Source: Xanthomarina spongicola
Lineage (GTDB): Bacteria; Bacteroidota; Bacteroidia; Flavobacteriales; Flavobacteriaceae
Length of the DNA stretch: 64,000 nucleotides
Direction: 5' to 3'
Assembly (NCBI RefSeq): GCF_003148645.1
Contig: NZ_QGGP01000007.1
Span: 1-64,000 of the forward strand
Positions 1 through 1,232 of the stretch are shown here, piece after piece. Position numbers and translations under genes: made by a program. Below the pieces are notes generated by a model. That model did not search any database and was not told the origin of the DNA. It worked only from the letters and a program-made list of their open reading frames with translations. Numbering within the stretch: position 1 is the first letter of the stretch; each line of letters begins with the position of its first letter.

Positions 1-117
1 TAGTGTTTTAAAGCCAGACACATCATTCTTTAGTTGATAATGACCTGTATTCTCATTATAAACATCAAACACAGATTTACTGATGTCAATACCATAAATT
101 TTTCTATCTTTAGTCAT
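1..117 (-). CDS. IS110-family transposase, N-terminal part (cut by window edge)
   Basis: Reading the minus strand from an ATG at 117 gives 39 codons that stay open to the window edge. The start reads MTKDRKIYGIDISKSVFDVY, which matches the N-terminus of IS110/IS1111 (DEDD) recombinases. Asp11 in GIDISK is the expected first acidic residue of the RuvC-like catalytic site. IS110 enzymes excise and insert the element guided by an element-encoded bridge RNA. Only the N-terminus is visible, so intactness and the IS110 versus IS1111 subgroup cannot be judged. The call rests on a short but characteristic motif. Confidence 0.82.
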   Translation of the reverse strand, partial: MTKDRKIYGIDISKSVFDVYNENTGHYQLKNDVSGFKTL

Positions 118-290
118 AAGAACTGAATTTTGGAAAGAACAGATGCTACTCACATTTCAACAACTTGAAAACGAGATCTAGGTCTCACAGAACTGAACGA
201 AGTTTAAGTAGTAAAAGAGAGAGGATTATCAATGTTGCCGAAGTCTAAATGCTTCACCGTGTATAGTAACCTTAATTCTCTCTTTTGTTC
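118..290 (-). ncRNA. Candidate IS110 bridge RNA / left-end non-coding region
   Basis: This is the non-coding segment immediately upstream of the transposase start, where IS110-group elements encode their bridge RNA. It has no ORF but is rich in hairpins. A long stem pairs 213-228 with 273-286 (AAAGAGAGA-type arm against TCTCTCTTT, small bulge) and encloses a loop with its own hairpin (GAAG 240-243 / CTTC 252-255). Two more hairpins lie closer to the gene: a near-palindrome at 173-186 (GAGATCTAGGTCTC) and TTTCAA-CAAC-TTGAAA at 155-170. About 170 nt fits the length reported for the IS621 bridge RNA. The identity is inferred from position and foldability; the target- and donor-binding loops were not assigned. 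Confidence 0.42.
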
Positions 291-333
291 TTTCTGATTA
301 TTACTTAAATTTAGTGAATTACAAACTTAAGAC

Positions 334-442
334 GTGTATAGTTCATTGCTTCGGATTTTCTACCGAAAATCCTCGCACTTTTGCTATCTTGGTTTCTATG
401 GCGGAAAATCCTCGCGGATTTTCACGCAACGAAACCATACAC
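334..442. repeat. MITE-like inverted repeat with internal GAAAATCC hairpins
   Basis: The outer arms GTGTATAGTTCATTGC (334-349) and GCAACGAAACCATACAC (426-442) are imperfect inverted copies of each other. Inside are two perfect 8-bp hairpins: GGATTTTC-TACC-GAAAATCC (353-372) and GAAAATCC-TCGC-GGATTTTC (404-423). The GAAAATCCTCGC core appears again at 62549. This looks like a small non-coding dispersed repeat. It lies between the IS110 end and the DinB-like gene, and no ORF is visible in 118-497. Confidence 0.5.
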
Positions 443-497
443 AAACACGTTACCACTCTTTGCAAAAAACTCAACTGAAATAAAAAGCTAACCAATT

Positions 498-1040
498 ATG
501 AAACGCATACTAATTTTGACCTTGGCAATAATATTTTCTTCGTGTACACATCAAACAAATACAGAACAAAATGATTTTATAAAAGACTATTTAGAGCGAT
601 TAGAAAACTCCAGAAAATATTTAATTCTTGTAGCAGAGAATATGCCAGAAGATAAATATGAATATAAGGCATCTCCAGAGTCAATGAGTTTTTCTGAAAA
701 TTTAATGCATATTGCTTGGGCTATGGATTGGCATAGTCAAACTTTATTAGGTGGACGTAAAGCAAGGGATTGGAACACAGATAAAGAACTTAAAGTTGAG
801 AATAAATCTAAAAAAGAGATGATTGCAACAATTAACAAAACGTTTAACGAAACTATAAAATTAATAAGCGAATTTAATACAACTCAATTTAATGATCAAT
901 TGGATTATCTAGGATTAAATAGAACGAAAAGGCAAATCTTCCTGCTACTTACAGACCACATAACCCATCATAGAGGTCAAATGCTTGTCTATATGCGACT
1001 TAATGGACTAAAACCACCTAGATATGTTTTATATCAATAA
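498..1040 (+). CDS. DinB-like metal-binding lipoprotein
   Basis: A 180-residue protein whose N-terminus (MKRILILTLAIIFSSC) is a lipoprotein signal with Cys16 as the likely lipidated residue. The rest reads as a DinB/YfiT-like four-helix bundle. His residues that could bind a metal occur in LMHIAWAMDWH and in the C-terminal DHITHHRGQMLVYMRLNG, the classic DinB HHRGQ signature. Families of this fold include thiol-dependent transferases of unknown substrate. Family assignment is good; the function is unknown. It stands alone downstream of repeat DNA. Confidence 0.75.
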   Translation: MKRILILTLAIIFSSCTHQTNTEQNDFIKDYLERLENSRKYLILVAENMPEDKYEYKASPESMSFSENLMHIAWAMDWHSQTLLGGRKARDWNTDKELKVENKSKKEMIATINKTFNETIKLISEFNTTQFNDQLDYLGLNRTKRQIFLLLTDHITHHRGQMLVYMRLNGLKPPRYVLYQ

Positions 1041-1232
1041 TTAAAGAGAATTGGAATCTATTGGAATAAAAATATGAAAGGCTTTAACACTAAAATTAAT
1101 TTCTTGGTTCTTGCCTAATTACTAAAATCCTATTTTTTCCCTCTGGTTAATTATCTTTAATTAGCTTAGTTCTCTAACAGTACAGAATAACCAAATACAA
1201 AAACGTTAAAACACTCTTGAAAAAATCAAAAA

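Follow-up and report, generated by a model that had tools for sequence, protein, structure and literature searches.

Among the described insertion sequences that work with a guide RNA, IS621, ISEc21 and the IS1111-attC group are the closest to the element analyzed here. In the structures published for IS621, top-strand exchange is placed behind position 9 (PMC11208158). The IS1111-attC group, with for example ISKpn4 and ISPst6, is made of IS1111-family elements targeting attC sites (PMC11187229). Concerning integrons, IntI is defined by its IntI-specific domain, which IntegronFinder uses (PMC9668308). Some integrons have been recorded in Bacteroidota or in the Bacteroidetes/Chlorobi group (PMC9668308, PMC2426708, PMC9024848), and a complete integron is named in Salinibacter ruber in the report on IntegronFinder 2.0 (PMC9024848).

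The window analyzed here is the first 64 kb (64,000 nucleotides) of contig C7 in the 29-contig draft genome of Xanthomarina spongicola, and at its positions 1-331 (minus strand) an IS110-type element is represented by its left end, the contig end having cut off the rest. A minus-strand open frame with an ATG at 117 runs off the left edge; these first 39 codons of an IS110-type (DEDD) transposase (1-117, minus) share 77% identity, over 39 residues, with the N-terminal part of L044, a full-length IS110 transposase, in agreement with the start of an IS110-type recombinase recognized in an earlier note on this DNA. Taken alone, the 39-codon fragment matched no Pfam family, and in NCBIfam we observed just two unrelated models, far under their cut-offs. 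The DEDD/RuvC domain and the Transposase_20 domain of the IS110 family were found on full-length relatives, the window itself holding 39 codons: one such relative (L009) matches PF01548 and PF02371, passes the curated IS110 model NF033542 and, among solved structures, retrieves by sequence the ISCro4 and IS621 transposases only (E 0.01 or better). The IS621 transposase (8wt6) was recovered as a relative with an E-value of 3.3e-31. Six residues (D11, E52, D94, D97, S237 and S240) are invariant in 11 relatives and, by analogy with IS621, may have catalytic roles.

The non-coding left end of the element (LE) occupies positions 118-331 (minus), as delimited with a second left-end copy on contig C6, and the insertion junction lies between 331 and 332, the element starting at 331 and the flank at 332. 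The element end noted earlier at the contig edge is real, but its boundary had been put near 300, 31 bases short of this start. Besides this second left end on C6, the genome contains two right ends, one on C10 and one on C14, and thus at least two copies of the element, broken by the assembly; the window copy is one that the assembly truncates. The pieces on C10 and C14 encode the last 98 residues of such a transposase, with 96% identity to L044 over 97 residues for the C10 piece. No match to PF01548 was found in this genome, the assembly presumably containing no more of the gene than its two edges. Likewise, a DNA search of plasmids with window positions 1-300 gave no match. Elsewhere, L012 (G001:C3:180454-180535) is probably a decayed left-end copy, with a short transposase-like fragment close by.

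To describe the ends and the insertion sites, we collected 68 relatives from genome records. Sixteen loci were left out (14 without a transposase start, L055 with 55 bases upstream and, needlessly, L076 with a match from residue 2). In the remaining 52, we located the left end in all but L052 (51 elements) and the right end in 40. The consensus ends, with slight variation, are CTTAAGTT on the left and ...CAGTTCTT on the right, and 37 of the 40 elements having both ends measure 1,201-1,323 bases. The left flank ends in TAYACNN in 46/51 elements, and the right one begins with TGTTR in 35/40. Empty sites of the own genome read NN|TGTTR, and the insertions retain NN at the left junction and TT at the right one; a target duplication is not needed to explain these junctions.

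A palindrome of about 125 bp is repeated along small contigs of the own genome, and one of its arms forms the left flank; this identity of the target had not been seen in the earlier note. In the window, the rest of the interrupted attC-like site lies at 332-451 (plus), with the R'' remainder at 332-349 and R' at 436-451. It is followed by a probable cassette gene of the DinB family (PF05163) at 498-1040 (plus) and, by eye, by a second, degenerate attC-like site at 1080-1207 (plus); because this degenerate site comes after the DinB-family gene, the contig start resembles the tail of a cassette array. The palindrome could instead be a plain REP-like extragenic palindrome with no role in cassette recombination: REP elements are the target of IS621 itself, and in some genomes the sites are also single and far apart. 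However, the starts of 20 cassettes of the own genome matched their own R'' arm at 117 of 140 bases, compared to 56 after permutation (0/20,000 permutations reached the observed value), and such a match is what the integration of circular cassettes leaves behind. Using a looser site finder, we observed the same effect in the own genome with 14 pairs (0/2,000), in G024 with 12 pairs (0/2,000) and in G050 with six pairs (6/2,000), so that in these three genomes both arms of an attC-like site come from the same cassette, as in integrons. The test was not significant in G088 (177/2,000) and G107 (255/2,000), four pairs each, which speaks for the REP-like reading. Patterns made from the own genome yielded 3, 2 and 2 pairs in G024, G088 and G050, respectively, with no signal, and a strict pattern in G107 found four sites and no usable pair. 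When three sites were folded as bottom strands, 7, 4 and 2 of 200 shuffles were as good, and a hairpin joined both arms in two of the three; the site remnant of the window was well folded on both strands (0/200 shuffles). On C14, the only contig considered in this respect, the larger frames all run in one direction. Of 120 genomes of the family, 77 contained a pattern of the R'' arm made from the sites of the own genome (at most 2 mismatches), and 0 contained the reversed control.

A tyrosine recombinase of 402 residues adjoins the array on contig C12 (L134, G000:C12, 1036-2244 minus). Its best model is XerA-like, with 206.7 of the 220 bits required, just below the cut-off, and it reaches 187 of 265 with the integron-integrase model, well below the cut-off. 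This second match is broken between position 178 and about 240, where the IntI-specific domain is expected, and the array-adjacent recombinase is thus not an IntI with this additional domain. No recombinase of the own genome passed the integron-integrase cut-off, which is a further point in favor of a REP-like palindrome. Relatives of the recombinase at E 1e-80 or better are present in 38/120 genomes. Searching up to 1.5 kb of flank at 30 recombinase loci, the own one included, we found an R'' site with at most 6 mismatches in 13, compared to 3/30 for a control pattern, and in 13/13 the site lay 3' of the recombinase and had the same orientation; this constant arrangement, like the cassette matches, argues against the REP-like reading, which we consider unlikely. 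Arrays beside a XerA-like recombinase were also seen at loci L127-L131. Concerning the cassette sites, we lean, with some reserve, towards a parasite of a widespread and apparently undescribed integron-like system of Flavobacteriaceae, composed of arrays of cassettes bearing attC-like sites of about 125 bp and an upstream XerA-like recombinase in the same orientation, devoid of the IntI-specific domain. Among the matches listed in a literature search, drawn mostly from outside the subscription journals, no title or start of an abstract mentioned such arrays in Flavobacteriaceae. A search requiring the IntI-specific domain would miss the array recombinase as an integron integrase.

Between the transposase start and the end of the element, positions 118-331 hold no gene-like frame, a GTG at 153 adding just 12 codons, which agrees with the absence of an open reading frame noted before; a long non-coding region upstream of the transposase is characteristic of IS110-type elements. 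Such a region might serve the transposase as an untranslated leader or an attenuator, its resemblance to the target being accidental, and the thermodynamic folding, no better than that of shuffles, is compatible with it. The shape of the upstream fold was much as described in the earlier note, but its energy did not differ from that of dinucleotide shuffles (z -0.95, and z 0.09 for 140-288). Covariation was examined with the left ends of 44 elements (the window and 43 relatives) aligned. RNAalifold proposed 24 pairs, 11 of them showing compensatory change. A fuller structure, obtained by adding to this fold the foot of the donor loop and a helix that closes the entire RNA, has 36 pairs in seven helices, 95.7% paired over the 44 left ends, and its weakest helix is the added donor-loop foot (86.4% paired). 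Changes on both sides affected 16 of the 36 pairs, compared to 6.4 in shuffles (0/500 shuffles reached this value), and pairing fell to 46-55% when the partners were slid by one to three columns. The case for a bridge RNA is thus built on covariation in 44 sequences, fold energy giving no support; in Rfam, no family reached its gathering score on the window. Measured by its closing helix (287-294/133-140), the RNA would be 163 nt long (133-295, minus; ends predicted). Covariation and the coordinates of the helices define a target-binding loop at 213-286 (minus), with a stem (278-286/213-221) and an apical hairpin (240-255), and a donor-binding loop at 146-211 (minus) with an apical hairpin at 173-186.

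Along its 5' side, the target loop carries nine bases resembling the nine to the left of the insertion. In the window, this left target guide (257-265, minus) is TATACACGG and its own left flank is TATACACGT, with 8/9 matches. The guide test was run on 51 rows, namely the window and 50 loci, L065 having been dropped for a gap. At least 7 of the 9 positions, wobble included, agreed in 49/51 elements, and all nine in 10. Summed over the elements, the guides fitted their own sites at 376/459 positions, compared to 342 +/- 5 when permuted, and 0/20,000 permutations reached this total, again 0/20,000 without the divergent L046 and L049. Eight rows duplicate another left end from their own genome; after these were removed (43 rows, all left ends distinct), the fit was 316/387 compared to 285, with 0/20,000 permutations. 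On its 3' side, the target loop is the reverse complement of the right flank: the right target guide (233-239, minus) is GGCAACA, reverse complement TGTTGCC, and the right flanks on C10 and C14 read TGTTGTGC. At least 4 of 7 bases matched in 38/40 elements. Alone, this guide hardly discriminates among elements (1,236/20,000 permutations reach the observed fit), since there is almost no variation in the right flank. Poor fits were observed for L049, with 5/9 on the left flank and 2/7 on the right, and for L059, with 1/7 on the right. Overall, the target loop carries two guides matching the target on either side of the junction. Covariation in the 44 left ends and a fit of the guides to their own flanks better than to those of others (0/20,000) argue strongly against a leader or attenuator, as does a distant relative in which guide and target have both changed (see below), and we regard that reading as highly improbable.

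Preferring a bridge RNA, we turn to its donor loop. The left donor guide (188-196, minus) reads TCAGTTCTG, the right end terminating in TCAGTTCTT. Compared to the nine bases that close the right end, at least 8/9 positions matched in 45/47 elements, seven of the 47 rows having been chosen with a typed motif. Guide and right end co-vary: position 1 is T in both in 38 elements and A in both in 9, and position 8 is T in both in 43 and A in both in 3, with a mismatch in 1. The donor loop thus matches the element's ends through its left guide. By eye, from the layout of IS621, the right donor guide is probably TTTTCAAG (164-171, minus), which could pair with the LE start CTTAAG. Taken together, the covariation and the guide matches to flanks and right end bear out what the earlier note had proposed, a bridge RNA upstream of the transposase with one loop for the target and one for the donor, and the complementarity on which it had made this reading depend was found for both loops.

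We then considered the exchange point. The core dinucleotide is mostly GT, GG or AT in the target and TT in the donor, so a core common to both, as in IS621, was not found. An IS621-like CT core was tried by hand and rejected, no placement fitting both the junctions and the empty sites. The NN/TT junctions fit top-strand exchange behind position 9 as in IS621, although here the cores differ. When the right and left ends are joined, TTG and TAAGTT are separated by exactly 20 nt in 40/40 elements, which are related elements with conserved ends and not 40 independent cases. We take this arrangement to resemble the -33/-7 promoter consensus of Bacteroidetes. From this spacing, TAAGTTTG (322-329, minus) is a candidate -7 element, and joined ends (window 322-331 and the right end) would form a Bacteroidetes-like promoter, completed on joining; the predicted circle junction is ...CTCAGTTCTT-CTTAAGTTTG...

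Guides and targets also changed together among relatives. When 295 genomes of the class were searched with a profile, 37 of them, including the own genome, contained a match at E 1e-30 or better. In one of them (G165), 7/7 copies of a distant IS110 relative (L215-L221) lie at GTCAT|TGCGA of a repeated sequence, preceded by C in six of the seven. The two sides of the guide are CGTCAT and CGCAATG, and a core AT is common to donor and target. Judged from these sequences, this relative is naturally reprogrammed, all seven copies lying where the guide points. Similarly, both guide and flank are changed in L046. In L180, by eye, the left flank is unlike the guide. In L184 (G319:C1:1336199-1337158), the guide ends in AACCGC and the left flank is AAACCGC; five more copies lie close together at 111-139 kb of G319:C1, perhaps in one array.

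An IS1111-type element with its RNA at the other end, a reading with which the earlier note would have been abandoned and to which the attC targets of IS1111-family elements lend some weight (PMC11187229), can be set aside with near certainty, since the RNA lies upstream of the transposase with the bottom-strand guide (257-265) preceding the top-strand guide (233-239) in the RNA, as in IS110-type elements, the stop codon is close to the right end in many copies, and in place of subterminal inverted repeats and a downstream RNA we observed inverted matches of the ends that barely exceed shuffles (mostly 5-7 bases; 13 in 1/40).

Overall, we are highly confident that the locus is an IS110-type insertion sequence with a bridge RNA in its left end, whose target loop pairs with the R'' arm of attC-like sites, whose donor loop would pair with the circle's joined ends, and whose recombinase would insert that circle. 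In the proposed mechanism, the element would transcribe the bridge RNA from its own left end; one loop would pair with the R'' arm of the cassette sites (TATACACGK|TGTTR) and the other with the joined ends of a circular form, and the DEDD/serine recombinase would insert the circle at the R'' arm in a single orientation, and cassettes would probably no longer be mobile at the site so interrupted. The RNA structure, the matches of target and left donor guides, the junctions and the natural reprogramming of relatives were obtained computationally, and this family of bridge-RNA recombinases in Bacteroidota is one whose guide, donor, target and reprogramming can be read from sequence. Targets with a core unlike that of the donor bear on the rules for programming such recombinases. 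Finally, serving as a fingerprint for a conserved recombination site, the guide also led to cassette arrays in many Flavobacteriaceae.

Compared to known systems, the element presumably differs from IS621 by the long helix closing the whole RNA and by a promoter that we assume to be of the Bacteroidetes type. To our knowledge, an attC-like target is otherwise known only from the IS1111-attC group, whose hosts carry canonical integrons and are mostly Proteobacteria. As IS621 is described in PMC11208160 and PMC11208158, the element shares with it a recombinase with PF01548 and PF02371, a left-end RNA containing one loop for the target and another for the donor, a nine-base left target guide ahead of a shorter right guide and, as predicted here, a circle junction that builds a promoter. 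In contrast, IS621 targets REP elements, where this element targets attC-like sites, and prefers a CT core in both target and donor, where the cores differ here (PMC11208160, PMC11208158). With the seekRNA of ISEc21, as reported in PMC11187229, it has in common the non-coding region upstream of the transposase, the bottom-strand match before the top-strand match, the lack of target duplication, natural redirection among relatives and a circle that would form a promoter, whereas the target of ISEc21 lies in IS3-family transposase genes. Like the IS1111-attC group it shows RNA-guided insertion at one end of attC sites, but that group belongs to the IS1111 family, with the RNA downstream of the transposase (PMC11187229). 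The kind of element is thus known, from IS621 and ISEc21 and, for the target, from the IS1111-attC group, and the more novel lead is the cassette system that hosts the insertions.
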